62,050 nt of DNA. Origin: Actinomycetes bacterium. GTDB lineage: Bacteria; Actinomycetota; Acidimicrobiia; Acidimicrobiales; Acidimicrobiaceae. Shown here piece by piece: positions 30,155 to 54,237 of the stretch. A model generated the notes under the pieces. That model saw only the letters and a list, made by a program, of their open reading frames with translations. It searched no databases and was not told the origin of the DNA. How positions within the stretch are numbered: the stretch's first letter is position 1; each line of letters opens with the position of its first letter. Both the position numbers and the translations under genes were made by a program. The stretch lies in contig JAJZLS010000079.1 in NCBI GenBank assembly GCA_021803345.1, positions 1 through 62,050 of the forward strand. The letters are read 5' to 3'.

Positions 30155-31015
30155 TTATTTTCCTTGTGAGGTTATTATTTCGATTGAGCTTTCGAAAAGC
30201 TGCTTGACCGAGTCTGATGTAATCGAGCAAACTCTACCAAGTACAAGCTTTGGTGAGATGCTCGAAATTGAGACTTCGATTGAACTTCCAGCATCTCTAA
30301 CTGATTTGGCTTGATTACGTAGGATTTCCTCTACTTTGGAGGCTCGATAACCACCGATATATAGCGTTCCAGTGCACAGGGCGTTGGAAAAAACATGTTG
30401 CCAGGATTGTGCGGCAGTGTAAATTGGATTTGGCTCAACCACAATTGAATCAGCATAAAGCAACTTGTTTTCGACGAATATTCGAAATTGCGTATTTAGA
30501 CGGTTGTAAACTAGAGTGTCGTCGATTTGGGGGAATGGCTGGCCGATTATGTCAGTAAAAATCAGTCTCGCGTCTTTTGCGAGATGTAAGTCGGTGGAAA
30601 ACTCCAGGGAACTATTTGGAAGCATTATGATGGGCTCGCAAATGTAGATCAGTGACGAATTATCCATTGCCACTATTTTCAAATCGACTTTCGCTGATTT
30701 GCCATCGCGCGTAGGCATTACTTTGGTGGCAGATTGGGCGTGTAGAACTATACTGCGTGAGTCGCTAAGGGTAACGTGAATTCGATGTTCTTCGGAGGGG
30801 AAAATTCCTGGCCCGATCTCTACCAAATAGTACTTGACATGGTTAAACTTAATTCCGCAGTTTTTTGATAGCCTGAATTGCCCGCTTTGGTGTGCTAGTT
30901 GCACGCCTCCTGAGGCTCCAAAGTTTGCTTCGAGGACGGAGGCTAGGTAGCTGTCTTTTTTGTCGGCTTCCTCTTTTCTTGTGTTAACGGGGATTCCTTT
31001 AGTCCAATAGCTCAT
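30155..31015 (-). CDS. ureD: urease accessory protein UreD/UreH
   Basis: 286 residues. The UreD pattern is present: GPGIFPSEEHRIHVTLSDSRSIVLHAQSATKVMP, then SLIYICEPIIMLPNSSLEFSTDLHLAKDARLIFTDIIG. UreD scaffolds the apo-urease and, with UreF and UreG, tunnels nickel into the active site. The N-terminal 30 residues are atypical and Lys/Glu-rich. It is the last gene of the urease operon. Its ATG overlaps the stop of the unassigned 187-codon frame by four bases. Confidence 0.88.
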   Translation of the reverse strand: MSYWTKGIPVNTRKEEADKKDSYLASVLEANFGASGGVQLAHQSGQFRLSKNCGIKFNHVKYYLVEIGPGIFPSEEHRIHVTLSDSRSIVLHAQSATKVMPTRDGKSAKVDLKIVAMDNSSLIYICEPIIMLPNSSLEFSTDLHLAKDARLIFTDIIGQPFPQIDDTLVYNRLNTQFRIFVENKLLYADSIVVEPNPIYTAAQSWQHVFSNALCTGTLYIGGYRASKVEEILRNQAKSVRDAGSSIEVSISSISPKLVLGRVCSITSDSVKQLFESSIEIITSQGK

Positions 31016-31575
31016 GCTTTCGATGCTTTCAGTTGTTGATTTTTCATCGGAGCACTGGGGTTCACTAGACTAGGCTTTTCTTGTTGTATCCTTCCAAGTC
31101 CTGAAAGATCCCGATGGGGATCCAGTCTTACGGAAACAACGAATTGCGTTGTAGTTATGTCCGCATCAGCTGTATATTTGCATTTGGAGCTAGCGAAGAG
31201 TGCTCGCTTCTTGTTATCTTCAATTTTGGCATTTTTACAGCCTGGGTAGTAGCACTGCGAATCGAAATTGGTATAGTCCGTTATGACTGGAACCCTGGGT
31301 TCAATGTTTGACACGTTCTCCCATAATAAAATTCTGTATGTGCACAAATTCTGATAAAGTAACGCCCTATTTGGTTCGTACTGCCGAGCTGCGTTTCGTC
31401 CCTTGTGACCAGTTTCAACACTTCTGAGTTGCGTAATCTCTGCGGCGGTAAAGACCTCATGCCTCGTAAGTGCGCATGTTTGGGCTCGACCTCTTTGCCG
31501 GAAGTTTGTTTGGTCGAGGCCCAAGTAGTAGATGACGTGGCAATTAGGGTAGTCCCGATGCTGGCGAATGCTCAT
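31012..31575 (-). CDS. unassigned 187-residue frame inside urease operon, C-terminus resembles degenerate TnpB zinc ribbon
   Basis: It fills the gap between ureG (6 bases before its start) and ureD (4-base ATGA overlap), so by position it looks like an operon member. No full-length family is recognised. Residues about 115-150 read SQCYYPGCKNAKIEDNKK..ALFASSKCKYTADADI, which resembles the RNA-guided nuclease/transposase-associated TnpB C-terminus (SQxCxxCG..DNRKSQ..F.CxxCGYxxDADxNA). The third Cys position is Ser, so the ribbon would be defective. The N-terminal half has no recognisable RuvC motif. Alternatives: a TnpB relic that happens to stay open, or a real small gene of unknown function. 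No UreE gene is present elsewhere in the operon, but nothing here resembles UreE. Confidence 0.4.
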   Translation of the reverse strand: MSIRQHRDYPNCHVIYYLGLDQTNFRQRGRAQTCALTRHEVFTAAEITQLRSVETGHKGRNAARQYEPNRALLYQNLCTYRILLWENVSNIEPRVPVITDYTNFDSQCYYPGCKNAKIEDNKKRALFASSKCKYTADADITTTQFVVSVRLDPHRDLSGLGRIQQEKPSLVNPSAPMKNQQLKASKA

Positions 31576-31581
31576 ATGGTT

Positions 31582-32313
31582 TTATGAATTCGCATGATGA
31601 TGCATGTCTTCAGCAGATGTAACGGTTTTGCCATGATATGATGCACGTATTCCCTCATTTAAGGAGTTTGTGGGGTTGAAGTTGCGGATTTGTTCAAGCA
31701 CCCAGCGTTGTATTTCCATGACACCCTCCCTGCTGAGCAGGTCACAGAAAATAGTTGGTAGTTCCCCCCTTATAATCTTTGCATCGCGGGCCATTACCTC
31801 CAAATCTGCTCCAACATGAGGTGCAAGTGTGGTTTTATTTATTATCAGCAGGTCTGAATATGTAAGGCCAGGCCCTCCCTTTCTTGGTATCTTGTCTCCC
31901 TGGGCCACGTCGATAATGTAGATGGTTTTATCTGCTAAATCAGGTGAGAACATAGCAGTCAAATTATCGCCACCAGATTCGACTAAAATTAGATCTAACT
32001 TAGGGAAGTTATCTCTGAGTTCGCGGATCGCTCCCAAATTCATTGAAACATCATCCCTTATGGCAGAATGAGGACATCCTCCAGTTTCGACACCAATTAT
32101 TTTTTGATTATCGATGATGTTTAGTTTTGAGAGAAACTGGGCATCTTCTTTTGTGTAGATGTCATTAGTTACGATTGCCATGTCTAACTGTGACTGGAGC
32201 ATTTCGATCAGACGCCTTACTAGCGTTGTTTTGCCTGATCCAACCGGTCCGCCGATTCCGATTCGAACCGGAGCATGTAATTCACTTTGGTATTTGGTTT
32301 TAGTGGCAGTCAT
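31582..32313 (-). CDS. ureG: urease accessory GTPase UreG
   Basis: 243 residues. SIMIBI-class GTPase: P-loop GPVGSGKT at residues 22-29, switch stretch AIVTNDIYTKEDAQFL, the nickel-binding Cys-Pro-His in GVETGGCPHSAIRDD, ESGGDN, and NKTTLAPHVGADL as guanine-specificity loop. It couples GTP hydrolysis to nickel delivery. The C-terminal tail ends MHHHANS, a short His cluster that might help hold nickel, notable because no UreE is encoded here. It lies 13 bases after ureF. Confidence 0.96.
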   Translation of the reverse strand: MTATKTKYQSELHAPVRIGIGGPVGSGKTTLVRRLIEMLQSQLDMAIVTNDIYTKEDAQFLSKLNIIDNQKIIGVETGGCPHSAIRDDVSMNLGAIRELRDNFPKLDLILVESGGDNLTAMFSPDLADKTIYIIDVAQGDKIPRKGGPGLTYSDLLIINKTTLAPHVGADLEVMARDAKIIRGELPTIFCDLLSREGVMEIQRWVLEQIRNFNPTNSLNEGIRASYHGKTVTSAEDMHHHANS

Positions 32314-32326
32314 TTTCTATCCTTTG

Positions 32327-33034
32327 TTAGCTCTGGAATAGTCTTGGTGAAAGAGATTGATGCTGCATTTGTGACACTTCAATTCCTAAACATAGCGCGG
32401 TTATGGTGTTTGGTTTTTGGTCGGGATAGACGCTAGCCAACTTGGTGATTATCGGACTAAGTTTTGACATAAGTTTGAGCTGATCGGTTTGGCCAATTCT
32501 TGCATATCTAACTAATACTTGCGTAAGAGCCAGAGCCTGACTTTGAAGGTAGAGCAGCCTGGTGCTATAAAAGTTCCAAGTACGGCGTGAAGCTATAAGA
32601 CCTACTAGGGTTGCGGGTTCATTGATGGCAAAACTGTCGAGTTTGGCAGCGGTTTCTCCGAAATAATTCTTGGCGGCGGTCAGGATAGCTTTGCAAATTA
32701 ATAGTGAAGCCGTTCTTGCCTCATGAGTGGGTCTAGAAGCATGCAAGTGGCTATCATTTTTCTCAATTTCTCCAATCGATTTACTACCTTTTGATTCATA
32801 AAGTCTCTGCGCTTCAGTCAGCACTACAAGCTCGCCATACCAGAGAGAATAAATCAGATAATTTGTGATCCACACGGCATACGACTCAAGTGTTTTCCCA
32901 GTGGAATTGGCTACAAAAGTTTCAAATCCAAAGCTGTGCGAAAAATAGCCAACCGGAAAACTCGAGTCGAAAAAGTAGTGCATCTCCCCGAGTGATGGAT
33001 CGCAATGATTGATTTCTGCAATCTTAGCCATCAA
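32327..33034 (-). CDS. ureF: urease accessory protein UreF
   Basis: 235 residues, all-helical. Family signatures: YFFDSSFPVGYFSHSFGFETFV near the N-terminus, then the central RTASLLICKAILTAAKNYFG region and the C-terminal LSPIITKLASVYPDQKPNT..LGIEVSQMQHQSLSPRLFQS, which matches the conserved UreF C-terminal tail (…S.xQ...SRLF.S). UreF bridges UreD and UreG. It lies 6 bases downstream of ureC. In most operons ureE would lie in this position, but it is absent. Confidence 0.93.
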   Translation of the reverse strand: MMAKIAEINHCDPSLGEMHYFFDSSFPVGYFSHSFGFETFVANSTGKTLESYAVWITNYLIYSLWYGELVVLTEAQRLYESKGSKSIGEIEKNDSHLHASRPTHEARTASLLICKAILTAAKNYFGETAAKLDSFAINEPATLVGLIASRRTWNFYSTRLLYLQSQALALTQVLVRYARIGQTDQLKLMSKLSPIITKLASVYPDQKPNTITALCLGIEVSQMQHQSLSPRLFQS

Positions 33035-33040
33035 GTGTTC

Positions 33041-34750
33041 CTAAAATAGACTGTAACGTTGGGTAAGTGGCAATTTATCTGCCGGGGAGGAAGTTAGCAG
33101 CTCTCCGTTTAGCCGGACTTGGTAGGTCAAAGGATCTACTTCAATGTCTGCAATCAAATTGTTGAGTACCATGTCATTTTTCGTAATAGTACGTGTGTTT
33201 TTTACGGGTAAGTATTTTCGACGCATGTATCTGGGTAGATTATTTTGGGCGATACTAATGCCGGAAACAAAGCTGACTCCAAGACTACTGGAAGCACTTC
33301 CCATTGTTCCAAATTGAGGTTTGTACATCTGCACTTGAGGAGTGGGGATTGAAGCATTGGGATCTCCACTAATTGCATAGGCGATCATTCCGGATTTTAT
33401 AACAGTCTCAGGTCTGATGCCGAAGAAGGACGGCTTCCATATTACTAAGTCAGCCAACTTCCCTATTTCAATTGATCCCACGTATTCCGATATACCGTTA
33501 GCTATAGCTGGATTTATGGTGAACTTTGAAATATACCTCTTGACGCGATAGTTATCTGATTTTTCATTATCCTGGGGCAAGGGCCCTCTCTCGCGTTTCA
33601 TTTTATCTGCAGTTTGCCAGGTCCTAATCAGGACCTCGCCAACTCGTCCCATTGCCTGGGAATCCGACGAGATTATGGAAATTCCACCTAGGTCATGAAG
33701 CACATCTTCGGCAGCGATGGTTTCTTTCCTTATTCTGGAGTCAGCGAAAGCGACATCTTCGGCAACACGCTTATCGAGATGGTGGCAGACCATGAGCATG
33801 TCCAGGTGTTCTTCAATGGTGTTAACGGTGTAAGGCCTGGTGGGATTGGTCGAGGAAGGGATGAAGTTTGAGAGGCCAGCTACTTTTATGATGTCGGGGG
33901 CATGCCCTCCGCCAGCGCCTTCCGTGTGGAAAGCGTGGATAGTCCGGCCGGCGATTGCATTTATTGTGTCTTGCACGAATCCACTTTCGTTTAGGGTGTC
34001 GGTGTGTATTGCTACTTGCACATCCGTTAAGTCGGCAACTTCCAAGCATGTGTCGATTGCTTTTGGAGTTGATCCCCAATCCTCATGTAATTTGAGCCCC
34101 ATCGCCCCGGAGCTCACCTGTTCCAGAAGTGCCTGGCCAGAAGAAGAGTTTCCTTTGCCGAAAAATCCGACGTTAATGGCCTGGTATTCGAATGCTTCCA
34201 GCATCCGGTGAAGGTACCACTTACCTGGAGTGCAAGTTGTGGCATTTGTTCCTGTGGCTGGACCGGTTCCTCCTCCAATCATCGTGGTCACCCCAGAAGT
34301 TATGGCAGCTTGTATCTGGTCGGCGGAAATGAAGTGAATGTGGGAATCAATTGCCCCAGCAGTTACAATCAAATTTTCGGCTGCAATGATTTCGGTTGAA
34401 GCACCAATTTCTATAGTTACCCCATAGGAGACCTGAGAGTTTCCTGCCTTTCCGATTGCTGCGATCAGGCCGTCTCGGACCGCAATATCTGCTTTGTAAA
34501 TGCCAGTGTTGTCGATAATTAAGGCATTTGTGACTACTAGATCTGGCGCGCCATGATCCCGTGTGATGGTTGGGTTTTGCCCCATTCCGTCTCTAATGGT
34601 TTTCCCGCCACCAAATTTGGCCTCTTCTCCGTAGACTGTTAGATCTTTCTCGACTTCAATAATCAGGTCTGTGTCTGCTAATCGCACTCGGTCACCAGTG
34701 GTGGGACCGTAATGGTAGGCATATTCGGCTCTACTAATTGAGATACTCAT
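33041..34750 (-). CDS. ureC: urease alpha subunit
   Basis: 569 residues, standard length. All active-site residues are present at positions three higher than in Klebsiella UreC: His137 and His139 (SHIHF), carbamylated Lys220 ([10 protein letters not shown]), His222, His249 ([10 protein letters not shown]), His275 ([15 protein letters not shown]), flap Cys322-His323 (MVCHHLD) and Asp363 (SSDSQAMGR). It hydrolyses urea to ammonia and carbamate with a binuclear nickel centre. It overlaps ureB by four bases. In this window it should consume urea made by the guanidine hydrolase of the divergent operon. Confidence 0.98.
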
Positions 34751-35058
34751 AGGTTGTGAATTCCATGGTGGTCATGACTAGGGGTACCCCCAGGCTGATC
34801 GGCACTAAACTTTATGAGCGATACAATCTTGGTTTGGCCGGGCTCGAATCTAACTGCAGTTCCCGAGGCTATATTAAGACGTTTTCCAATGGCGGTTTCT
34901 CTGTTGAATTCAAGGGCTGAATTCGTTTCAAAAAAATGGAAGTGCGATCCTACCTGAATTGGCCTATCGCCACTATTTCGAACTTCTATTGCGAGCGACT
35001 CCAGATTCTCGTTGAGAATGATGTCTTCTTCTTTCAAAAATATTTCACCAGGAATCAT
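34747..35058 (-). CDS. ureB: urease beta subunit
   Basis: 103 residues. [17 protein letters not shown], then [22 protein letters not shown] and [23 protein letters not shown] are the conserved UreB stretches. Separate gamma, beta and alpha subunits show the usual three-gene bacterial form. Its stop overlaps ureC by four bases, and it follows ureA by 25 bases. Confidence 0.96.
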
Positions 35059-35083
35059 TTTTATTCCTCTAAAAGTTTTCCAA

Positions 35084-35386
35084 TTATTGAATTGGATTAT
35101 GGACTGTGACTAGCTTGGTGCCGTCTGGGAATGTGGCTTCTATCTGGATTTCGTCAAGCATTTCAGCAATGCCTTCCATTACCTGGGAGCGGGCCAGGAT
35201 AGATCTCCCTTCAACCATTAGTTGTGCTACTGAAGCTCCATCACGGGCCCGCTCGAGTATTTGAGCTGATATCAGTGCAACTGACTCTGGGTAGTTGAGC
35301 TTTAAACCTCTATTTAGCCGCTTAAGAGCTAGATCAGATGCAACCACAAGCAGAAGCTTTTCCTTGTCTCGTTCAGTTAGAAGCAT
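35084..35386 (-). CDS. ureA: urease gamma subunit
   Basis: 100 residues. [40 protein letters not shown] and the C-terminal [21 protein letters not shown] are classic UreA. First gene of the urease operon, divergent from the riboswitch operon across a 460-base AT-rich interval. Confidence 0.97.
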
Positions 35387-35809
35387 CGAAACCCCGATTC
35401 ATTGAAGTGTAACGAAAATCTAATTCCTCTAAATATCTTTATAGTGACTAAGAATTAACATTCGTCAAGTTACAAATGCTGTTAATAAAATGGAAATAAT
35501 TTCGATTATGCGTGAGATAATTGTCATTGGTATGTACCAATAAATAGTTGTCATGCGTCGTGTCTATTTTCAATATTCTGATTGTAGTGCTTGTCATCTT
35601 GGTGAATTACCAGGTTGAGAGCAATATAGGGCTGTTATGCTCATGTGATTATTATGGGAATGGCATATTAGTTAACCGTATGTTTACATTTCTGATGTTA
35701 TTTCACACAAAAGATCGGCTAAATTTAATAATTAGTTAGTTTGTTTAGTGGTTGTGAGTTGCGAAATGTCCGTAACAATTTAGAAACAAAGGTGTTTGAT
35801 TTCACTGTA
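35387..35809. promoter_or_regulatory. AT-rich divergent control region between urease and guanidine operons; 16-bp palindrome
   Basis: No gene is seen. A perfect palindrome ATTGGTA-TG-TACCAAT lies at 35526-35541, flanked by two TTGTCAT copies (about 35520-35526 and 35547-35553). It is a plausible operator for a dimeric regulator acting on ureA, ureC and the rest of that operon. On the minus strand TTGACG followed 19 bases later by TATAAA, about 40 to 80 bases before ureA, could be the urease promoter, although the spacing is long. The regulator cannot be named. Confidence 0.4.
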
Positions 35810-35839
35810 TTGGAGGTAATTAGACCCACTGGGTATAAA
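35810..35839 (+). promoter_or_regulatory. putative sigma-70-type promoter of the riboswitch operon
   Basis: TTGGAG (35810-35815), 18-base spacer, TATAAA (35834-35839). Transcription would begin about 35846, exactly at the 5' edge of the riboswitch aptamer, which supports the assignment. Confidence 0.6.
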
Positions 35840-35846
35840 AAATAAT

Positions 35847-35936
35847 GCACCTAGGGTTCCACGCTTTGCGGTTCGGTCCGAGAGGTGCGAGCGGATGTTA
35901 AATCCGTTACACGGAGGGATAAAAGCCCGGGAGGTC
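35847..35936 (+). ncRNA. guanidine-I riboswitch (ykkC subtype 1) aptamer
   Basis: The conserved ykkC blocks are all present in order: CTAGGGTTCC (35851-35860), GGTCCGAGAGGTGC (about 35875-35888), the variable stem GCGGAT/ATCCGT, then TTACACGGAGGGATAAAAGCCCGGGAGGT (about 35907-35935). Known subtype 1 members bind free guanidine and switch on genes that detoxify, export or use it. ykkC subtypes 2 sense PRPP or ppGpp and are hard to tell apart by eye, but the downstream guanidine-hydrolase gene argues for guanidine. It controls the operon 36008-43667. Confidence 0.93.
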
Positions 35937-35956
35937 CATAGATCGTCCGGGCTTTT
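35921..35956 (+). terminator. riboswitch-controlled intrinsic terminator
   Basis: AAAAGCCCGG (35921-35930) pairs with CCGGGCTTTT (35947-35956). The 5' arm is part of the conserved 3' segment of the aptamer, so the terminator and the ligand-bound aptamer exclude each other. Guanidine binding should thus prevent termination and turn the operon on. Confidence 0.8.
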
Positions 35957-36007
35957 GCACGTCTGGAGGATGGTTTGTCGTTCTAAAACACAAAGGAGAG
36001 TGCAAAA

Positions 36008-37723
36008 ATGAATTGGCTATGCCGGTTCAATCTTAGAGGGAGTTCAATTCCAGGACGAAGGAGGCGACGGTTTGCACTTCGGTTTCCAGGTAGGTCTCTA
36101 GCGGTAATAGCCGCCGGATCAATGGTGTTGGCGGCATGCGGCAGTTCAGCAAGTTCGAGCTTAACCTCGACTACCGGTTCGGGGTTGGCTAAGACGGCTG
36201 CTGTAGTTGGGGATCCCAGTAGTCATACTTTGAATCTGGCCTTCACTGCTGACACTCAGCCTCCAGATCCTGATGTTTTCTATGCCGGTCAAGGTCTAGC
36301 AATTACTAACTCGGTATATCAAGGCTTAGTCCAGTACCAGCAGGATCCGGTAAATTATACGGGGTCAACCACCTTCCAGCCTTCCACCTCAAGACCTAAG
36401 ATTGTGCCTGATCTTGCAACTTCATGGACTATATCTCCGGATGGCTTGACCTATACATTCAATCTTCGTCATGGAGTCACGTTCCATGACGGAACCCCAT
36501 TCACCTCAGCAGCGGTAGCGGCTTCCTTTGCCCGGAGGACAGCAGTAAACCAAGGTCCTGCATATATGCTTTCTGATGTTGCTAGCGTTGACACATCAAA
36601 TCCGTATGTGGTAGTAATTCATCTCAAGCAGCCTGTTAGTGCTTTTATGGACTACCTGGCGTCTGCTTATGGTCCAAAGATGGAGTCCCCAACGGTGCTC
36701 AAGGACCATGCCGGCAAGGACTATGCTCAGTCCTGGCTCGCTACTCACGACGCTGGTACCGGTCCCTATTACATTGCATCGGTTACTCCAGGACAGGAAT
36801 ACGTATTGAAGGCGTATCCGCAATATTGGGGGCCTAAGCCCTATTATACGACCGTAAACATACGGATAATACCGAGTATTTCGACTCAAGAACTGGAATT
36901 TGAACAGGGAAAATTGACAATGCTCTTACATGGATTGTCGACGTCAGCCATTGCTAGCTTTAAGTCAAATCCGTCATTTAGAGTCTATGCGGTGCCCACG
37001 CTTGAAACTCCGATGCTGTGGGTAAACCCCAATAGTAAGCTTCTATCTTCACAAACAGTGCGTCAAGCGCTTGCTGAAGCGATCAACCGCGCTCAGATCG
37101 TCAAGTTCATCTATCCTGGGCGAGCCACAGTTGCAAAGCAGATCTATCCAGTTGGGATGGTGCCCGCCGGAACTGCTGTGGACAATCCCCCCTATGATCC
37201 CGGTGCATTGGCTAAAGCCTTAGGGTCACATGGAAGTTCAAGAAATTTGGTGCTTGGATACGACGCGCCATCTCCATCAGATGCTCAAATGGCCAACTTG
37301 ATCCAAACTGAGCTTGCGGCAGCTGGGTTGCACGTGACAGTTCGTTCTTACACCTCTACCGCCCTATATGGTTATGCTGGCAATCCAGTTGGAGCGCCAG
37401 ATCTTTTGGCGGTGACAAACTGGCCTGATGCGGCTGCTCCAGATACATGGGCTCGAATTGTGATGACTCCCGGAGGAGGGCTTAACTACCTGAACTGCTC
37501 GGTCCCGTCCGGGACGGCGCTTCTGAATAAGGGGCTGCACACAACCTCTCAGGCTCAGGCGAATCTCTATGACGAAGAAGCTGGAGTCAAATTTGCTCAG
37601 TCAGGATGTTGGGATCCTATCGCCAACAGGGGAGACACAATTGTTGCTCCGAGCTGGCTTAAGGGCATAGTCCATCAGGTACCGGTACCAAGGACCGTGG
37701 TATTGGCCGACTTGCACCCATGA
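36008..37723 (+). CDS. family-5 (dipeptide/nickel-type) solute-binding lipoprotein
   Basis: 571 residues. A long basic N-terminus is followed by a lipoprotein signal with lipobox LAAC (Cys44). The SBP_bac_5 fold is shown by PKIVPDLATSWTISPDGLTYTFNLRHGVTFHDGTPFTSAAV, GTGPYYIASVTPGQEYVLKAYPQYWG, and a C-terminal lobe with SQTVRQALAEAINRAQIV. Family members bind peptides, nickel complexes, sugars or opines, so the ligand is not readable. ATG 36008 follows AAAGGAGAG. It is the first gene after the guanidine-I riboswitch, so its ligand is probably guanidine, a guanylated compound, or nickel for the downstream enzyme. Confidence 0.9.
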   Translation: MNWLCRFNLRGSSIPGRRRRRFALRFPGRSLAVIAAGSMVLAACGSSASSSLTSTTGSGLAKTAAVVGDPSSHTLNLAFTADTQPPDPDVFYAGQGLAITNSVYQGLVQYQQDPVNYTGSTTFQPSTSRPKIVPDLATSWTISPDGLTYTFNLRHGVTFHDGTPFTSAAVAASFARRTAVNQGPAYMLSDVASVDTSNPYVVVIHLKQPVSAFMDYLASAYGPKMESPTVLKDHAGKDYAQSWLATHDAGTGPYYIASVTPGQEYVLKAYPQYWGPKPYYTTVNIRIIPSISTQELEFEQGKLTMLLHGLSTSAIASFKSNPSFRVYAVPTLETPMLWVNPNSKLLSSQTVRQALAEAINRAQIVKFIYPGRATVAKQIYPVGMVPAGTAVDNPPYDPGALAKALGSHGSSRNLVLGYDAPSPSDAQMANLIQTELAAAGLHVTVRSYTSTALYGYAGNPVGAPDLLAVTNWPDAAAPDTWARIVMTPGGGLNYLNCSVPSGTALLNKGLHTTSQAQANLYDEEAGVKFAQSGCWDPIANRGDTIVAPSWLKGIVHQVPVPRTVVLADLHP

Positions 37724-37736
37724 TGGAGGTGAAACC

Positions 37737-39713
37737 GTGGCACTTACCTTTCGCATCAAAAAGGATCCGGGAGCAATGAATAACATAGTCGATGATCCTA
37801 GTCCAGTAGTCGAAATCAGGGATTTGTCTGTTTCTCTTAGCCGAGGACAGCAACGAGTTCAAGCCTTGAAGGGGATAAATCTTACGATCAACCAGGGCGA
37901 GATTATCGCCCTGGTTGGGGAGTCAGGTTCAGGTAAATCTGTTCTTGGGATGACAATTCTAGGGTTGTTACCACCGACTGCAGATCCGGCAGTGGACGGC
38001 ATTGTTTCGGTACTAGGTAGTGATCTGACCAATATTAGCGACCGCAAGCTGAGAGAACTAAGGAGATATCAACTCGGTGCCGTGTTTCAGGATCCAATGA
38101 GTTCATTAAATCCTTCGATGAAGGTAAAGGGGCAGCTTAGGGAGGTATTCGAGCCAGTTCGCAGTTTGGTTGATGCTCTAACAGAGGTAGGTATTACTGA
38201 TCCTGAATCTGCGCTTGAGCGTTTTCCTTTTGAGCTTTCTGGTGGACAGCGTCAAAGGGTGATGACCGCTATGGCGTTACTGAAAGAGCCGTCCGTTGTA
38301 GTCGCAGACGAGCCAACTACAGCACTAGATGTGACAATCCAGGCTCAGATTTTAAATTTAATAAAGGAACTCCGTACCAATTCAAAAAGCGCATTTTTAT
38401 TTATAACTCATGATTTGGGTGTTGCTGCCGAAATTGCCGATCGAATAGTGGTCTTATATAACGGCAAAGTTCTTGAGCAGGGTATTGCAAGCGATATCCT
38501 TACTAATCCGAGCCATCCATATACCCGTCATTTGACTAATTCACGAATCACTATGACCCAGGATAAAGAGGGCATGCTCAGTAGAAGGGAGATGCGGGTC
38601 AATCAGTTCGCTCTTAAACCAGAGGGTTGTCCGTATTCCAATGGGTGCGAGTTTGCGTCGGAAAACTGTGCGAACCAATTCCCAGCAGCAACTGAGGTTG
38701 GACCTGGCTGGTTGAGCTATTGTCATCATCTCGAAGAATTGAAGTTGGTCAACTTTGAACTATCAAATAGAAAGCGAGCTAAAACTCCGCCGAGCCGCTC
38801 CTCTAGCGAGGTTGTTCTGGATGTTGCAGGAGTTGAGAAGCGCTTTAGAATCAGAAGTTCAGATGGGTACCGGGAACTCCAGGCACTTGACAACGTGGAC
38901 CTCAAACTATCCAAGGGTGAGGTAATAGCCGTGGTAGGCGAATCTGGTTCCGGTAAATCCACTCTTCTTCGTATTCTTGCCGGGCTCGAAACCGCATCTT
39001 CAGGTTCTATTATCAGGCGATCAGGCAGTCTACCCAAAATGGTTTTTCAAGATGCCGGTTCTTCGCTTACACCCTGGATGAAGGTTTCAGAAATTTTGGC
39101 TGAATCACTTCTGCAAAAGAGAATTCCAAAGGTCGAACGGGAACTCCTCGTATCGCAAGTACTGGGTAAAGTTGGCTTGAGTGATGGGGTCCGGGACTCT
39201 AAGAGTTCGAGCCTTTCTGGTGGACAGCGTCAAAGGGTGGCAATTGCTAGATGCGTGATCGATCCACCGGATGTCTTGCTGTGTGATGAGCCAACCAGCG
39301 CCCTCGATGCCTCTTTGGTTGCAAATACGTTGGATCTGTTGGTCAGTCTAAAAGACGAGTTGCAAATGGGAATGGTTTTCGTCACCCATGATCTGGCGGT
39401 GGCCAGATACATATCTGACCGAATCATGGTGATGTATAAAGGCAGGGTAGTCGAATCTGGACCGTCTGAGCTTATATGTACACATCCCCTGCATCCTTAC
39501 ACCAAAATGCTTCTGGCGTCGCTACCTGGAGAGGGCAATCTCGTAGATGCCCCAAAATCTGAAGTGTCGCAAGCAGAGAATATGACGGGTTGCCCATTCG
39601 CACCTAGGTGTTCTTCAGCAATGGATAGATGCATTGAGGCGTATCCGACTTCTATGAGATTTGAAGACCGACGGCAGGTGGATTGTTTTCTGGTCAAAGG
39701 AGGAATGCGTTGA
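37737..39713 (+). CDS. fused double ABC ATPase (DppD-DppF type)
   Basis: 658 residues holding two complete ATPase halves that are normally separate proteins. Half 1: Walker A GESGSGKS at 61-68, signature LSGGQRQRV, Walker B VVVADEPTTALD, then a Cys-containing oligopeptide-type C-terminal tail (CPYSNGCEFASENC). Half 2: Walker A GESGSGKST near residue 401, signature LSGGQRQRVAIARC near 493, Walker B VLLCDEPTSALD and a second Cys-rich tail (CPFAPRCSSAMDRC). Such tails can hold an iron-sulfur cluster in oligopeptide transporters. GTG 37737 follows TGGAGGTGA. It powers the two permeases downstream. Confidence 0.93.
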   Translation: MALTFRIKKDPGAMNNIVDDPSPVVEIRDLSVSLSRGQQRVQALKGINLTINQGEIIALVGESGSGKSVLGMTILGLLPPTADPAVDGIVSVLGSDLTNISDRKLRELRRYQLGAVFQDPMSSLNPSMKVKGQLREVFEPVRSLVDALTEVGITDPESALERFPFELSGGQRQRVMTAMALLKEPSVVVADEPTTALDVTIQAQILNLIKELRTNSKSAFLFITHDLGVAAEIADRIVVLYNGKVLEQGIASDILTNPSHPYTRHLTNSRITMTQDKEGMLSRREMRVNQFALKPEGCPYSNGCEFASENCANQFPAATEVGPGWLSYCHHLEELKLVNFELSNRKRAKTPPSRSSSEVVLDVAGVEKRFRIRSSDGYRELQALDNVDLKLSKGEVIAVVGESGSGKSTLLRILAGLETASSGSIIRRSGSLPKMVFQDAGSSLTPWMKVSEILAESLLQKRIPKVERELLVSQVLGKVGLSDGVRDSKSSSLSGGQRQRVAIARCVIDPPDVLLCDEPTSALDASLVANTLDLLVSLKDELQMGMVFVTHDLAVARYISDRIMVMYKGRVVESGPSELICTHPLHPYTKMLLASLPGEGNLVDAPKSEVSQAENMTGCPFAPRCSSAMDRCIEAYPTSMRFEDRRQVDCFLVKGGMR

Positions 39714-40573
39714 GCCTTGCATATGGGGTAGCGCGATCTGACGTGAAGCCGATTAGAAAACCTGGGTTATTTTCTAGGAGCAGGTCTGAAAAAGCGGCCA
39801 TAGGCGTTCTTGGAATGGTAACCCTTATTGCCCTTTTGGCACCAGTTTTAGCGCCTACGAATCCGTTATTGCCAGTTACACAGCCATTTGTTCATCCGTT
39901 TACAAGTAGTCATTTGTTGGGCACCGATTCAGTTGGCCGGGATGAGTTGTCACGGATTCTCTACGGAATACGTGCGAGCTGGTTTTCCGCTCTAGCTGTA
40001 ATTGCTTCAGGTGTTGTTATAGGTGGGCTGGTTGGCATGATGGCTGGCATAAGAGGTGGACGAGTCGATTCGGTTTTGATGCGGATTACGGATGGTTTTT
40101 TAGCTTTCCCTGGTCCGGTGCTTGCTATTGCAGTCGTGGCATCTCTCGGCGCTTCTTTGCTTCATACACTTTTGGCAGTAGCAATTGTCTGGTGGCCATT
40201 TTATGCAAGGATTGTTAGAGGAGAGGCTAGGGCTATAATGTCACGTCCTCATATAGAGGCTGCTCGGACTTTTGGAGTCAAGGGATTAAGGCTGGCTTAT
40301 CGGCATGTGATGCCAGGGGTGATTCCAGCAGTAGTCGTCACTGCATCACTTGATATTGGTAATCTGATTGTCACCTTATCTGGTCTTTCTTTCCTTGGTT
40401 TGGGTGCTCCGGCTCCTTCTCCGGAACTGGGTGCTATGGCCGCGAGGAATCTTCAATATCTACTTCAACAGTGGTGGGTTTGTGTGTTTCCAGCAGTGGC
40501 AATTATGTTTCTGGCCCTGGTTGGAAATTTTGCCGGCGATTCCCTTCGTAATGTCTTTGATTCAAGATCATAG
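39710..40573 (+). CDS. ABC permease, DppC type
   Basis: About 287 residues from TTG 39710, which follows AGGAGG and overlaps the ATPase stop by four bases (TTGA). It has an N-terminal cytoplasmic stretch, then six membrane segments with the BPD_transp_1 EAA loop as EAARTFGVKGLRLAYRHVMPGVIPAVV. HLLGTDSVGRDELSRILYGIR is the signature of DppC/NikC/OppC permeases. In most operons the DppB-type gene comes first; here the order is C then B, and both follow the ATPase. Confidence 0.9.
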   Translation: MSLAYGVARSDVKPIRKPGLFSRSRSEKAAIGVLGMVTLIALLAPVLAPTNPLLPVTQPFVHPFTSSHLLGTDSVGRDELSRILYGIRASWFSALAVIASGVVIGGLVGMMAGIRGGRVDSVLMRITDGFLAFPGPVLAIAVVASLGASLLHTLLAVAIVWWPFYARIVRGEARAIMSRPHIEAARTFGVKGLRLAYRHVMPGVIPAVVVTASLDIGNLIVTLSGLSFLGLGAPAPSPELGAMAARNLQYLLQQWWVCVFPAVAIMFLALVGNFAGDSLRNVFDSRS

Positions 40574-40586
40574 AGAGGAGCCAGGA

Positions 40587-41651
40587 ATGTATGTATCGAT
40601 GTTTATCCTCAAGCGAATTATGGCTGCGATTGCCATAATTGCTGGACTTACTTTGGTACTATTTATATTGCAGGCGGTATCGAAGACTAATCCAGTTCAT
40701 GCCATGCTTGGAGCTGGGGCTACACAGTCAGCGATACACGCTGAAGAGGTTAAGCTGGGTCTAAATAAGCCTCTCATTATTCAGTATTTTCGCTATCTCC
40801 ATGGGATTATCACCGGTAACTTGGGAATTTCGTATCGCACCAGGAGGCCAGTCGCTTCAGATTTAGCTACCTACCTTCCCGCCACTCTTGAATTGGCATT
40901 TTATTCACTAATTCTGGCAATCGCGATTGGAACTATGTTGGGGGTCTTGTCAGCTGGAAGATTTAGGGGTGCCGGAATCATCAAAGGTGTGCTAGTTGGG
41001 GGAGCATCAGTTCCTCAGTTCCTTTTGGCAATCGCTGGTTTGCTCTTCCTTTACGGAAGGTTTCATTTACTGCCTGCTACTGGGCGGATAGGTGTTCCAA
41101 ACCCGCCGACAGGTCCAACTGGGTTTTATACGATCGATGGAATTTTAAATGGCCGACTTGGTGTGACGTTAGATGCATTCAAATATTTGGCTCTTCCATG
41201 TCTTTCTGTGGCAATAGGCCCTGCAGTATCAATTGGGCGGGTACTCCGAGGTTCATTACTCGAAACCATGAATTCAGATTTTATAAAAACTGCAAATTCT
41301 AAAGGTCTTTCACGGTCTAAGGTAATTCTGCTTCATGGGCTGAGAAACTCCATTGGTCCTGCTTTATCCATGACTGGACTTCAAGCTGGTTTGATGTTTG
41401 CTGGAGTTGTCGTGATTGAAGATGTGTTCGCCTGGCCAGGTATTGGCTATTATACAGCTCAGAGCATACCGAGTGGCGACTTTCCTGCCATTGCTGGAGT
41501 CACTTTGATCCTAGGTGTTGGCTATGTGCTTATAAATACAATCGTCGATATTGCTCAATTGATTGCAGATCCTCGATTGCGCCGGATGGAGATGGGTGGG
41601 CGATTGAAAGCAAATTCCCGAATCAAGACTCCTACTGCAGTGCGGCTTTAA
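40587..41651 (+). CDS. ABC permease, DppB type
   Basis: About 354 residues from ATG 40587, preceded by GAGAGGAGCC. An earlier in-frame reading would overlap the previous permease deeply and is rejected. The N-terminus FILKRIMAAIAIIAGLTLVLFIL is the TM1 of DppB/NikB proteins, followed by the periplasmic region with LGLNKPLIIQYFRYLHGIITGNLGISYRTRRPV. The EAA loop is FIKTANSKGLSRSKVILLHGLRNSIGPAL. The C-terminus shows GVVVIEDVFAWPGIGYYTAQSI. It forms the heteromeric channel with the DppC-type protein. Confidence 0.92.
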   Translation: MYVSMFILKRIMAAIAIIAGLTLVLFILQAVSKTNPVHAMLGAGATQSAIHAEEVKLGLNKPLIIQYFRYLHGIITGNLGISYRTRRPVASDLATYLPATLELAFYSLILAIAIGTMLGVLSAGRFRGAGIIKGVLVGGASVPQFLLAIAGLLFLYGRFHLLPATGRIGVPNPPTGPTGFYTIDGILNGRLGVTLDAFKYLALPCLSVAIGPAVSIGRVLRGSLLETMNSDFIKTANSKGLSRSKVILLHGLRNSIGPALSMTGLQAGLMFAGVVVIEDVFAWPGIGYYTAQSIPSGDFPAIAGVTLILGVGYVLINTIVDIAQLIADPRLRRMEMGGRLKANSRIKTPTAVRL

Positions 41652-41710
41652 AGATAAATCAAATAATCCTTGTCAAACAATAACCTTATAGAGAGAAAGC
41701 GAATTCACCT

Positions 41711-42844
41711 ATGTCAAAAACTGAAGCAACTAATCAGCCATACAGGCCAAAGCATGGGAACGAAGCATTATTTGCTGTAGAGGCTGAAGCCAAATTGCCC
41801 ACTGCCAACTGGGAGAAGGAAAAGGCATGGGCACTTGAAATGGGTCTGCCTGGTTCAGATAGTCTCAGGGATAAATCAATCCCAACTTTTTCCCGGGGTG
41901 AACTTCCGCATTTTGCAGGGATAAATACTTTTTTGAAAGCTCCTTTTCTTGAGGACGTTAGAAAATGTGGTGAGTACGATGTCGCAGTACTGGGCGCGCC
42001 GCTCGATGCCGGTACTACCTATAGGCCAGGAACCCGTTTTGGTCCGCAGGGGATTCGTCGGATATCGGCACTGTACGGGACTTACAGTTTTGAGCTTGGT
42101 GTGGATCTCAGAGAGTCGATAACAATTGCTGACCTTGGAGATATATTTACAATCCCTGCCAATATTGAGAAGAGCTTCGATCAGATTTCTAAGGCTGTGG
42201 CACATGTTTATTCGAGTGGTGCGCTGCCGATAGTTCTTGGGGGCGATCACTCGATTGGCTATCCAACAGTTAGGGGAATTGCACAACATTTGAACGGTAA
42301 TTTGGGAATCATCCATTTCGACCGCCACGTGGACACTCAGGAATACGATCTGGATGAGCGGATGCATACCACGCCGTGGTTTCATGCTACAGATATTCCC
42401 AATGTTCCACCGAGAAATCTGGTCCAAATCGGAATTGGTGGATGGCAAGCACCTCGACCAGGAGTAGCTGCCGGGAGAGATAGACAAACCACAATCATGA
42501 CTGTGAATGACTGCGTAGATATGGGGGTTGAAGAAGCCGCTCAGGTTGCTCTTGACGTCGCTTGGGATGGAGCGGATTCAGTTTGGCTTTCGTTCGACGT
42601 TGATTGTCTTGACGCTGCATTTGTTCCTGGCACTGGTTGGCCAGAGCCTGGGGGATTTCTTCCGAGAGAAGTTCTGAAGATGATTCAAACTATAGGTTCA
42701 AGGCCATTGGCGGGCATCGAGGTTGTGGAATGTTCGCCACCGTACGACAATGCCGATATCACGTCGTTGATTGCCACAAGAGTAATTTGTGATACGTTAG
42801 GTTCCCTGGTAAAGTCAGGAAACTTGCCAGTAAGGAGAGATTAG
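41711..42844 (+). CDS. gdmH: guanidine hydrolase (nickel-dependent ureohydrolase), GdmH-like
   Basis: 377 residues, arginase/agmatinase fold. Metal ligands: His180 (GGDHS), Asp204, His206 and Asp208 (HFDRHVD), Asp296 and Asp298 (SFDVDC). Features that distinguish it from agmatinases and match the Synechocystis guanidine hydrolase as I remember it: HFDRH instead of HFDAH, TQEYDLDERMHTTPWFHAT, QIGIGGWQAPR, and GTGWPEPGG, plus an extended N-terminus of about 85 residues. Known reaction: guanidine + water to urea + ammonia with a dinuclear nickel centre. Position in a guanidine-I riboswitch operon beside urease supports this independently. Separate nickel-insertion proteins, needed by the cyanobacterial enzyme, are not in the window. 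Confidence 0.92.
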   Translation: MSKTEATNQPYRPKHGNEALFAVEAEAKLPTANWEKEKAWALEMGLPGSDSLRDKSIPTFSRGELPHFAGINTFLKAPFLEDVRKCGEYDVAVLGAPLDAGTTYRPGTRFGPQGIRRISALYGTYSFELGVDLRESITIADLGDIFTIPANIEKSFDQISKAVAHVYSSGALPIVLGGDHSIGYPTVRGIAQHLNGNLGIIHFDRHVDTQEYDLDERMHTTPWFHATDIPNVPPRNLVQIGIGGWQAPRPGVAAGRDRQTTIMTVNDCVDMGVEEAAQVALDVAWDGADSVWLSFDVDCLDAAFVPGTGWPEPGGFLPREVLKMIQTIGSRPLAGIEVVECSPPYDNADITSLIATRVICDTLGSLVKSGNLPVRRD

Positions 42845-42848
42845 TCAG

Positions 42849-43667
42849 GTGGGTCGAAGATTCGGGGTCAGGCAGCTATATATGTTTACCGTCGGATGGG
42901 AGGAACTTCCCAAATCTTGGTCGGTTTATGGAACTGATTCTTCGGAGCGACTAGTTGAGCCGGTTCCAATGGTTCTACTGGAGACCGTTGATGGATGGTT
43001 TCTATTGGATACCGGGTTTAACAAAGTACTTATTGAGAACCGGGAGCTTTATCGCAGGTTTCACTCCAGATTCCATATGATCAAGCCGATTTTGCCCAAA
43101 TATAATGAGGATCCTTTGATCGACGCTATAAACAAGGTAGGTCTAGGAGCCAAAGACATTTCGGGGGTTGCCATCAGCCACCTTCATAATGACCATTCCG
43201 GGGGTATACGCCATTTCGCAGGTGGCACTCCCATATTTATTCAGAAGCAGGAACTGGAGTTTGGTCTTGGCGATCAGGTAAAATGCGAGTCTGACGGGTA
43301 TGCACGGGTAGATTACGATGACCCTTCGGTCAACTGGATTCAGTTGGAAGGCGATGGACGGGTGGCTCCAGGAGTTGAAGCCATTTTCACTCCTGGTCAT
43401 ACTCCCGGTCACATGAGTTTTGTGGTCCATTTTGACGGCGAGGAGTCAAGCGGCTTGGTGTTTGCCTTCGATGCGGGGGACTTGCACGAGAATTTTGATG
43501 ACGAGGTGGCTATTGGGGGTTTTATCGATGTAGAGCCTCGCCAAACAGTTGAGCAGATTGTCAAGCTCAAGCAGATTTCTAAATCGTACAATTACCAATT
43601 AATTCCTGGTCACGACCCAACGGTATGGCCTGGTGCGAACGAGAACCTGATGCGTAAAGTCCACTGA
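42849..43667 (+). CDS. metallo-beta-lactamase-fold hydrolase, lactonase-like
   Basis: 272 residues. The two-metal MBL motif is complete: SHLHNDHSGG (HxHxDH), PGHTPGHMS (third His), AFDAGDLHEN (bridging Asp) and PGHDPTVWP (last His). The overall layout, with an N-terminal LYMFTVGWEELPKSW and LLDTGFN strand, resembles N-acyl-homoserine lactonases and related lactonases or amidases of the AttM/AhlD group. GTG 42849 lies four bases after the gdmH stop, so it belongs to the riboswitch operon. No guanidine-pathway role is known for this fold. Possibilities are hydrolysis of an imported guanylated precursor, a damaged intermediate, or a moonlighting resident. Function is not assigned. Confidence 0.82.
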   Translation: MGRRFGVRQLYMFTVGWEELPKSWSVYGTDSSERLVEPVPMVLLETVDGWFLLDTGFNKVLIENRELYRRFHSRFHMIKPILPKYNEDPLIDAINKVGLGAKDISGVAISHLHNDHSGGIRHFAGGTPIFIQKQELEFGLGDQVKCESDGYARVDYDDPSVNWIQLEGDGRVAPGVEAIFTPGHTPGHMSFVVHFDGEESSGLVFAFDAGDLHENFDDEVAIGGFIDVEPRQTVEQIVKLKQISKSYNYQLIPGHDPTVWPGANENLMRKVH

Positions 43668-49997: not shown

Positions 49998-50429
49998 ATG
50001 ATAAAGATCGGCCATGCGCAGTTTTGGGTCCGCGACCAGGACGAGGCGCTCATGTTCTACACTCAGACCCTCGGCTGGGAAGTTCGCGCTGATGTCAGCA
50101 TGGAAGCGTGGAACTTCCGGTGGCTATCTGTTGGCCCGGCCACACAGAATGAGGTCGGGCTGGTCCTGATGCCCATCCCGGGACCGCCGATGATCGATGA
50201 GCAGTCAAGCGCCGCTCTCGCGGAGCTTGTGGCCAAGGGTATGGGCGGTACACTCTTTCTCGAAACCGATGACTGCCAAGCCAGCTATGAAGAACTGGCG
50301 TCTCGAGGGGTGCACTTTAACGATCCTCCCACCAGGCACCCGTATGGAATCGACACGTCTTTCCAAGACCCCTCAGGCAACAACATCCGCCTTACTCAGG
50401 TCCTTGAGTTTGACCCGAATCGTGCCTGA
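49998..50429 (+). CDS. VOC-superfamily (glyoxalase/bleomycin-resistance type) protein
   Basis: 143 residues. Two beta-alpha-beta-beta-beta modules: IGHAQFWVRDQDEALMFYTQTLGWEVRAD and GTLFLETDDCQASYEELASRGVHF..PPTRHPYGIDTSFQDPSGNNIRLTQ. Likely metal or ligand positions include His6 and the end-of-module acidic residues, but substrate is unknown: members act as dioxygenases, isomerases, epimerases or antibiotic-binding proteins. The DNA is clearly richer in GC than the genes to its left. It is the left edge of the 50.0-55.7 kb GC-rich island. ATG 49998 follows GAGAGGAA. Confidence 0.88.
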   Translation: MIKIGHAQFWVRDQDEALMFYTQTLGWEVRADVSMEAWNFRWLSVGPATQNEVGLVLMPIPGPPMIDEQSSAALAELVAKGMGGTLFLETDDCQASYEELASRGVHFNDPPTRHPYGIDTSFQDPSGNNIRLTQVLEFDPNRA

Positions 50430-50447
50430 TACCCTTCGGATGGACAA

Positions 50448-50872
50448 GTCCTCGAGGAGATCCTGCGACCGGAGGCCAACTCCGGCTTATTGCCAGCACC
50501 TGGCCCAGCCGTACTGCGCTTCGCCGCAATAGTGGCATTTTCCGGACTCGTCATATCACTTATTGCCACCCGCAACCTACAGCGTCCAGCTACTGGGCGC
50601 TCAGGATCCCCGGGCAATCGCAGAGGATTTTGGCTGATTGTTGCTGCGGAGGGTGCGGCGATAGCGGTTGCCTGCGCCCTCGTGACAGCGTCGCTCTACA
50701 TCCAGCGAATGGGGTGGTTGCTTGGGTGTCAGTCGTCGTCGAGGTCCACTTCCTGGAGGCTCGGGTCAAACGGGCGGTCACCGGCTGCTTCAAAGCAGCA
50801 AGTGGCAGTGGCGCTAAACGTTGTCAGTCCGAACTTTTACCGAGTTATATTCGATCACGCCTCCTAAGCTAG
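50448..50872 (+). pseudogene. frameshifted small membrane protein
   Basis: One frame reads EILRPEANSGLLPAPGPAVLR then two membrane segments (FAAIVAFSGLVISLIAT and FWLIVAAEGAAIAVACALVTA). Membrane-protein sequence continues in another frame as NGVVAWVSVVVEVHFLEARV. The pattern (FWLIVAAE..VAWVxVVVGVHFxxLAR) occurs in small four-helix actinobacterial membrane proteins of unknown function, so this looks like one gene broken by a frameshift near 50700. No start codon with a ribosome binding site was found. Confidence 0.6.
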
Positions 50873-51063
50873 GCCATGGGTCTGCCCACATGCACCTTTG
50901 CAGTTGACGGGTTCATAAAAAGTCTGATGGCAATCTCCTGATTTGACAGCCCTTTGGCAGCAAGGATCACGATTTCGCTCTCGCGGGGCGTGAGCGACGA
51001 AATTCCTGGAACCGCTGTATACTCTACTGCCGCAGCGTAACCAGCAGTGTTTGCCGATAATTT
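50869..51063 (-). pseudogene. remnant of LuxR-family regulator (C-terminal HTH)
   Basis: On the minus strand, between TGA at 51064 and TAG at 50869, the frame reads GISSLTPRESEIVILAAKGLSNQEIAIRLFMNPSTAKVHVGRP. This is the LuxR/GerE helix-turn-helix (LTPRExEVLxLxAxGLSNxEIAxxLxxSxxTVKxHV). The N-terminal receiver or sensor part is missing and the last helix is cut short, so it cannot be functional as it stands. It sits between the broken membrane gene and the glycoside hydrolase. Confidence 0.75.
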
Positions 51064-51072
51064 TCACTCGGC

Positions 51073-53428: not shown

Positions 53429-54237
53429 CGGCTGCGTTCCCTGTACTCCCACAGCCGCTCTCCGCCAAGGAGAAACAACACGAATAGCGGCACCATAACC
53501 GCCAAATCGCCAGTCGGCCCTAAGGTGACTACCTCACCATAGCCGGGCGTTCCGACATAGAATGCAGCCCTAGTGAGCTCGACAGCGTAGCGCATGGGCA
53601 TTGCCCATCCTAGAGCATTGAGCCAACCTGCCACCCCACGGAGGGGAACCACAACGCCGCTCAACACATATTGGGGCACAATCAAGAATTGGAAGACTTG
53701 CATCGCTGACCGCTGATTGGGAAGGGCGGCTACTGTCGCCAGCCCGAATGACGCCCCCAAGAGGGCACAGGCGACACACGGGGCCATAATCAACATAAGC
53801 TGGTGGAACCCTATATTCACGCCGAATAAAAGAGCAGCGAGAGCTATGCATACTCCTTGGCAGAGAGCCACGGCCGTCTCGCCTAGCACTTTGCCCGACA
53901 TCAAAACCAGACGTGACACCGGAGCGACGAAAAGCTCCCGGGCAAAATCCAGTTCGCGATCTTCGACAAGCGAGATCATGCCGGCAGCTGCGGACTGAAA
54001 AATGGTCGCCGCCAGCACGCCGGTGAAGGCAAGGGTGACGGTATCCAGCCCATAGACTCGGCCAACTGTAGGCGCCAGGAGATTCCCTAGTCCCACCATC
54101 ATGACGACTGGAAACATTAGATTCACGGCGAGGCGAAGGCGGTCGCGTCGCAGCTTGGTCACGTCACGCTGGGCAATCATTAACACCGCCGAGATCTGAT
54201 GGCGCGCCGGACGACAGCGAAGGGCTGTGGCGGTCAC
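53425..54237 (-). CDS. ABC-2 permease, DrrB/NodJ type
   Basis: 270 residues, six membrane segments. The start AVLMIAQRDVTKLRRDRLRLAVNLMFPVVMMVGLG and the middle part LVEDRELDFARELFVAPVSRLVLMSGKVLGETAVAL are the ABC2_membrane signature shared by daunorubicin (DrrB), NodJ and related exporters. FLIVPQYVLSGVVVPLRGVAGWLNALGWAMPMRYAVELTR is the conserved end. It overlaps the ATPase gene by four bases, so they form one exporter. The cargo may be the glycosylated product of the next gene. Confidence 0.9.
   Translation of the reverse strand: MTATALRCRPARHQISAVLMIAQRDVTKLRRDRLRLAVNLMFPVVMMVGLGNLLAPTVGRVYGLDTVTLAFTGVLAATIFQSAAAGMISLVEDRELDFARELFVAPVSRLVLMSGKVLGETAVALCQGVCIALAALLFGVNIGFHQLMLIMAPCVACALLGASFGLATVAALPNQRSAMQVFQFLIVPQYVLSGVVVPLRGVAGWLNALGWAMPMRYAVELTRAAFYVGTPGYGEVVTLGPTGDLAVMVPLFVLFLLGGERLWEYRERSR

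Follow-up and report, generated by a model that had tools for sequence, protein, structure and literature searches.

The conversion of guanidine through urea to ammonia is a published route, as are the guanidine hydrolase GdmH and guanidine-I riboswitch control together with an ATP-binding cassette (ABC) importer or an APC permease (PMC8390497, PMC12186494, PMC11410670, PMC12342949). The locus compared with these systems lies at positions 30155..43667 of a 62,050-nucleotide stretch of DNA, hereafter the window, which comprises positions 1 to 62,050 of contig JAJZLS010000079.1 (assembly GCA_021803345.1) from an Actinomycetes bacterium of the Acidimicrobiaceae (Acidimicrobiales, Acidimicrobiia). 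It contains a guanidine-I riboswitch, a six-gene operon that includes an importer of family 5, GdmH and a metallo-beta-lactamase (MBL) fold hydrolase, and a divergent set of urease genes.

Two described systems resemble this arrangement closely. In Synechocystis sp. PCC 6803, the operon of Sll1077 (GdmH) likewise combines a guanidine-I riboswitch, an ABC importer and GdmH in a single operon (PMC12186494, PMC8390497). Nitrospira inopinata has the guanidinase closest in sequence to the window enzyme among PDB entries; the two enzymes share their signature residues, a riboswitch stands in front of the gene, and a urease is present in the genome (PMC11410670).

The window is read here as a guanidine-inducible nitrogen-scavenging module, with a probability of roughly 0.8. 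An earlier note on this DNA (the original prediction) had described a guanidine-to-ammonia gene set, and that set is confirmed as real. The claimed riboswitch-headed operon with a GdmH-type enzyme is borne out by the Rfam match and by Pfam matches on all six plus-strand genes, which follow the riboswitch with intergenic gaps of 59 bases or less. Both motifs claimed for the hydrolase, HFDRH and GTGWPEPGG, are present. The urease genes ureA-ureB-ureC-ureF-ureG-ureD do run divergently from the operon nearby; the distance from the riboswitch to the ureA start codon is 453 bases, not 460 as had been stated.

Guanidine hydrolase, riboswitch and urease

The window GdmH has its best PDB matches in chain 9fek (665.7 bits) and chains 7esr/7oi1 (553.3 bits); the next chain scores 179.9 bits. 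In their PDB titles, both are putative agmatinases; 9fek is the N. inopinata guanidinase and 7esr/7oi1 is the Synechocystis enzyme (PMC11410670). Guanidinases are distinguished by Thr105, His222 and Trp313 in N. inopinata numbering (PMC11410670). The PDB alignment places T103, H219 and W310 of the window enzyme at these positions, a mapping that uses an inferred constant offset of +2 between chain and native N. inopinata numbering. The NCBIfam agmatinase model gives 159.1, under its cut-off of 174.3, and no second ureohydrolase was detected in the window's own genome at E 1e-3. Across 248 genomes of the order, a sample drawn from a larger group, GdmH orthologues are at least 72% identical while the other listed ureohydrolases reach at most 41%. 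Due to the published diagnostic residues, the best PDB matches and this identity gap, the proposed identity is upheld; it is strongly supported that the predicted enzyme hydrolyses guanidine to urea and ammonia.

The riboswitch is the only RF00442 match in the available genome sequence. It is overlapped by a long, G+C-rich hairpin with fold z-scores of -3.4 and -4.1. The conserved 3' end of the aptamer, AAAAGCCCGGGAG, doubles as the 5' arm of the hairpin, whose 3' arm ends in CUUUUG. This overlap is compatible with a terminator/antiterminator switch that ligand binding would set to read-through; the OFF state without guanidine would form at the hairpin. Guanidine binding and switching by this element are predicted from family membership. 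A custom riboswitch model built from sequences of the order matched 61 of 80 named GdmH loci (E up to 0.001), and at one of these (L075) the match is on the other strand.

The gamma, beta and alpha subunits of urease all score above the curated cut-offs of their models (TIGR00193, TIGR00192 and TIGR01792). The window ureC has motifs which are presumably those of the active site. The accessory proteins UreD, UreF and UreG were found by Pfam; UreE was not among the open reading frames (ORFs) scanned in the urease region, and UreE is dispensable for urease. Between ureG and ureD lies a 187-aa ORF without a Pfam match; at one related locus (L127) no gene was called between these two. Rfam also reports a 5_ureB_sRNA match (34306-34595, plus strand, 98.5 bits) antisense to ureC, which may only reflect conservation of the urease coding sequence. 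Upstream of the divergent ureA, an alignment of three sequences showed no clear conserved motif outside the riboswitch.

Features of the guanidine locus in the window
Feature	Position	Strand	Basis
Guanidine-I (ykkC-yxkD) riboswitch aptamer	35840..35935	+	Rfam RF00442, 80.4 bits (gathering score 63; E 1e-12)
Terminator-like hairpin, 5' arm common with aptamer 3' end	35920..35957	+	Folds of 35900-36012 and 35840-36020
Family-5 solute-binding lipoprotein (SBP_bac_5), importer receptor	36008..37723	+	Pfam PF00496, 4e-72
Fused double ATPase, DppD-DppF type	37737..39713	+	Two ABC_tran and two oligo_HPY stretches (Pfam)
Permease C (BPD_transp_1)	39683..40573	+	Pfam
Permease B (BPD_transp_1)	40587..41651	+	Pfam on ORF 40368-41651; likely start ATG 40587, inferred
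Guanidine hydrolase (GdmH, guanidinase)	41711..42844	+	Arginase family, 1e-77; PDB 9fek, 7esr; T103, H219, W310
MBL-fold hydrolase, AiiA-like	42849..43667	+	Lactamase_B; PDB alignment; alignment of 24 homologues
ureA (urease gamma)	35084..35386	-	Family profile match
ureB (urease beta)	34747..35058	-	Family profile match
ureC (urease alpha)	33041..34750	-	TIGR01792, 904 bits (cut-off 680)
ureF	32327..33034	-	Pfam UreF, 3e-14
ureG	31582..32313	-	Pfam cobW/HypB/UreG, 8.6e-39
187-aa ORF between ureG and ureD, may not be a gene	31012..31575	-	No Pfam match
ureD	30155..31015	-	Pfam UreD, 2.4e-23

Recurrence of the gene set in related genomes

The search for the gene set that the original prediction had proposed was run on the genomes of the order. 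GdmH is present in 24 of the 248 genomes and a riboswitch above cut-off in 23; both occur together in 22. Two genomes have GdmH without the riboswitch (G055 and G135), and one has the riboswitch alone, at a contig edge (G202). In G123 (L134), GdmH is split over two reading frames and the MBL and urease matches are also partial; the split is due either to sequencing error or to decay. The window's own family was represented by nine drawn genomes: three have all five components (riboswitch, GdmH, urease, solute-binding protein and MBL) and six have none. The six include the only further member of the window's genus in the draw; absence is judged at the search thresholds applied. In this family, the components appear to have been gained or lost as a set.

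Urease (E up to 1e-100) is found in 56 of the 248 genomes. It is present in all 24 GdmH carriers, compared with 32 of the 224 other genomes (Fisher 3e-18); these counts and the test treat related genomes as independent. Since urease accompanies GdmH in this way, the gene set is a real unit. In 18 of the 24 carriers (window included) no more than about 10 kb separates urease from GdmH. The six carriers without urease in view near GdmH are G117, G189, G050, G021, G009 and G036; in G036, the urease set adjoins a riboswitch and importer on another contig.

A wider set of 98 distinct GdmH loci was assembled from the best 80 named loci, the 24 loci of the order and the window, less seven duplicates. 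Urease is in view at 30 of these, mostly in Actinomycetota with one locus in Chloroflexota (L064); such counts are lower bounds, since contig ends truncate many GdmH loci. At these 30 loci, ureA is downstream on the same strand in 15, on the other strand in seven and upstream on the same strand in seven; L127 has only ureC, on the other strand. On a quick GdmH tree of the 98 loci, in which 34 of 94 inner branches are open, at least 16 changes are required to explain where urease is in view, a count which contig ends inflate. Proximity of GdmH and urease was apparently gained or lost repeatedly.

The arrangement of the urease genes varies between relatives. In the window and in two other loci (L002 and L005) they are divergent. 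In six loci (L126, L128, L129, L131, L132 and L133) everything is on one strand in the order receptor, ATPase, permeases, GdmH, MBL and ureA on to ureG, with extra genes in some. In five of the six, Rfam places a riboswitch upstream on that strand of the contig: G141 (L129), G033 (L131), G083 (L132), G116 (L133) and G069 (L128). In G069 it is further up, ahead of glutamine-synthetase-like and creatininase-like genes; the contig of L126 starts inside the receptor gene, so its upstream region is cut off. In L126, L128, L129, L131 and L132, the predicted end of MBL and start of ureA share four nucleotides (ATGA or GTGA), and in L133 an isochorismatase-family gene sits between MBL and ureA. Given this order, the upstream riboswitch and the overlaps, urease in the one-strand relatives is probably translated from a guanidine-switched message.

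Acidithrix ferrooxidans PY-F3, a cultured strain, shares with the window the order riboswitch, importer, GdmH and MBL. In this locus (L003) there is no urease beside the operon; one is present on another contig. The Acidithrix GdmH and that of L112 (G117) have identical sequences.

Taken with the neighbourhood and the one-strand clusters with their four-nucleotide overlaps, the co-occurrence supports the assignment of urease to the guanidine route. To this extent, the earlier claim that all three nitrogens of guanidine become available is upheld. Urease could alternatively be an accidental neighbour that serves external urea only. The divergent orientation in the window without a riboswitch of its own, the Acidithrix urease on another contig and the six carriers without urease in view would fit this explanation. 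It is nevertheless highly improbable given the presence of urease in every GdmH genome, its proximity in 18 of them, the overlaps with MBL in five relatives and the repeated changes on the tree, inflated as these are.

Importer, MBL-fold hydrolase and the imported compound

Importers of several types accompany GdmH. Among the 98 loci, a family-5 importer is present in 15, a NitT/SsuA-type receptor in 43 and an APC permease in 17; 23 have none by the queries and thresholds used. A NitT/SsuA or APC importer is in view at none of the 15 family-5 loci, compared with 60 of the 83 others. Because the other types are never in view beside it, the distribution fits replacement of other guanidine importers by the family-5 importer. 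On the GdmH tree the importer label needs three changes, at least two of them on well supported branches. The predicted cargo of the window importer is guanidine or a guanidine-bearing compound.

The MBL protein aligns with AiiA (PDB 3dha and 2a7m), an N-acyl homoserine lactonase of the same family, and has the full metal-site motif in common with it (HLHNDH, H184, D208 and H255). It differs in having Asp211 at the position of AiiA Tyr194. In AiiA, Tyr194 lies beside the metal ligand Asp191 and has a catalytic role. In an alignment of 24 homologues, Asp211 is kept in all 16 MBL proteins of the clusters; since seven of the eight other homologues also have it, this residue is taken as the mark of a wider MBL clade that extends beyond guanidine loci. 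A function as N-acyl homoserine lactonase was considered and rejected: the lactonase equivalog model gives 133.5 against a cut-off of 375, and the Tyr194 position holds Asp.

MBL is found at 14 of the 15 family-5 loci (it is missing from view in L070) and at two of the 83 others. The latter two are in G189 (L049/L114), which has a family-5 importer on another contig, and in G123 (L134), which has no receptor match. At genome level (receptor E up to 1e-70, MBL E up to 1e-25), MBL is present in 13 of 14 receptor-bearing genomes; six more genomes have MBL without the receptor. A tree-based test of MBL and importer pairs has no power, with two supported pairs and a median p of 1. The MBL protein is a regular partner of the importer and probably acts on the imported compound before or beside GdmH. 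Genomes with receptor and MBL that lack GdmH (G178 and G197) were considered as evidence of an independent tie and dropped. The G197 contig is short and GdmH was possibly lost at its edge; in view are a permease, the receptor, MBL (29% identity) and urease.

In the proposed mechanism, plus-strand transcription in the absence of guanidine would end at the hairpin, as judged from the anatomy and the known riboswitch class. With guanidine bound, the aptamer would keep the 5' arm of the hairpin and the six-gene operon would be read. The family-5 importer would take up guanidine or a guanidine-bearing compound, and the MBL protein would probably act on something imported, before or beside GdmH. GdmH, judged by homology and signature residues, would convert guanidine to urea and ammonia. 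The divergent urease, judged by homology, co-occurrence and neighbourhood, would then release ammonia and carbon dioxide from urea, making all three guanidine nitrogens available. Both the induction of the operon by guanidine and the use of its nitrogen are predictions from sequence.

Several points weigh against this reading, in addition to the relatedness of the genomes counted above. The U run of the hairpin is just four long and is followed by GCACG, and a simple terminator scan did not call the hairpin at 35920-35957. The window urease is divergent and, with no second riboswitch in its upstream region, might be expressed constitutively. Family-5 receptors serve mainly peptides, metal chelates or opines, not a tiny cation; a nickel role for the importer is possible. 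The tie between MBL and importer is suggestive, with few independent origins.

GdmH and urease both require nickel. The importer might therefore carry a nickel chelate for these two enzymes while guanidine enters by other means. Nickel models are among the matches of the receptor and permeases, all below cut-off (NikA equivalog 166 bits against 393, NikC 227.9 against 358.45, NikB 186.6 against 447); the ATPase passes the NikD cut-off (349.5 against 318.7), misses that of NikE (314.3 against 332.55) and also passes that of the general dipeptide ATPase. The window's own genome has no match to the NicO nickel transporter, and CbiM is above cut-off in none of the 24 GdmH genomes. A nickel importer was nonetheless dropped as first choice and is improbable. 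NicO is about equally common in family-5 GdmH genomes (4/12) and in other GdmH genomes (5/12, three of them weak). In addition, the receptor clade occurs in 12 of the 24 GdmH carriers but in just 2 of the 32 genomes that have urease and lack GdmH, so it tracks GdmH and not urease by itself; and the absence from view of other importer types beside it is what replacement would produce.

A third explanation extends the guanidine route upstream. The importer may carry a larger guanidine, or an acylated or cyclic one, from which MBL (in relatives with an isochorismatase-family amidohydrolase) frees guanidine as both intermediate and inducer, with GdmH and urease completing the breakdown. Besides the distribution of MBL itself, this is suggested by fusions in one frame of MBL and an isochorismatase-family domain between GdmH and ureA, in L131 (11002-12504, plus strand) and L132 (8359-9885, minus strand). 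The same domain is the next gene after MBL in L133 and lies inside a riboswitch-led importer operon in L162. All four are nearest, among NCBIfam models, to biuret amidohydrolase, with scores under its cut-off. Guanylurea hydrolase, a relative in the isochorismatase family, yields guanidine (PMC9800807). The clusters of relatives also include Rieske oxygenases, a second ureohydrolase, an allantoinase-like gene, and a glutamine-synthetase-like and creatininase-like pair, some of these behind guanidine-I riboswitches. There is also precedent in a published guanidine-I operon that serves growth on methylguanidine; its class-I switch answered only guanidine in the tested range (PMC12508155).

Other observations speak against this explanation. 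The window cluster has none of the extra genes and only MBL, and the best isochorismatase homologue in its own genome is not close (31% identity). Six of the 19 MBL-bearing genomes have no receptor; one of these (G123) has MBL beside GdmH and the other five have no GdmH. The importer type changes only about three times on the tree, the pair test is powerless, and L070 is a family-5 locus without MBL in view. A substituted cargo is a tentative proposal. Equally tentative is the fuller form of this idea, which is based on the isochorismatase fusions, the extra enzymes and the methylguanidine precedent: a mineralisation operon of Acidimicrobiia under one RNA sensor, in which a substituted guanidine (guanylurea-like, acylated or cyclic) would enter by the family-5 importer and pass through MBL and GdmH to ammonia, with riboswitch-controlled urease in relatives. 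The nitrogen-scavenging module proposed above, with guanidine or a guanidine-bearing compound as cargo, is the preferred reading.

Rieske oxygenases occur in GdmH or importer loci in L126, L128, L049/L114, L113, L162 and L167. Two were scanned against NCBIfam, and the nearest model for these is glycine betaine monooxygenase, below cut-off; N-demethylation of methylated guanidines is a possible function. In L163, L165 and L176 (G189, G078 and G069), a guanidine-I riboswitch is followed by a glutamine-synthetase-III-like gene, a creatininase-like gene and then the same family-5 receptor.

Elsewhere in the window, the region 50001-56000 with the minus-strand genes 51073-55693 has a G+C content of about 60%, compared with 45-51% in the rest of the window. 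The genes are GH42-like, an MGDG-synthase-like glycosyltransferase, an ABC-2 exporter pair and a cupin. This block may be foreign.

Comparison with described systems

The Synechocystis operon differs from the window in its importer, which is of the SsuA/NrtD-SsuB type and is accompanied by HypA and HypB; the window has a family-5 receptor, a fused ATPase and an MBL gene. No NitT match was found in the window locus, and its six operon genes belong to families other than HypA and HypB (only the operon was examined for these two). In Synechocystis, urease is at a site which is not riboswitch-regulated (PMC11410670). The N. inopinata locus has an APC permease, with no ABC importer or nickel chaperone close by, and its urease too is sited away from any guanidine riboswitch control (PMC11410670). 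In the four example genomes of the same paper on comammox bacteria, urease is located at places outside guanidine riboswitch control (PMC11410670).

The guanidine carboxylase and methylguanidine operon of Vreelandella boliviensis is similar to the loci described here in that a riboswitch operon is extended by enzymes for substituted guanidines (PMC12508155). It uses the carboxylase route, and the passages on its operon genes name neither GdmH nor urease (PMC12508155).

The natural source of guanidine has been named as an open question (PMC12186494). The MBL, isochorismatase-like, Rieske and creatininase-like enzymes are candidates for guanidine release, linked to guanidine sensing by gene order.

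According to the original prediction, the combination seen in the window was not a described unit. This holds for the exact set as far as the searchable literature shows; it does not hold for GdmH beside urease, which recurs at the loci counted above. A literature search whose coverage excludes most subscription journals turned up no report in which a guanidine riboswitch precedes a family-5 importer, an MBL gene or a urease set. In relatives, a set of urease genes does follow such a riboswitch, and the window adds an importer type for which no guanidine role was found reported in that literature. The parts of the locus are all of known kinds; what is unusual is the type of importer and its MBL partner.

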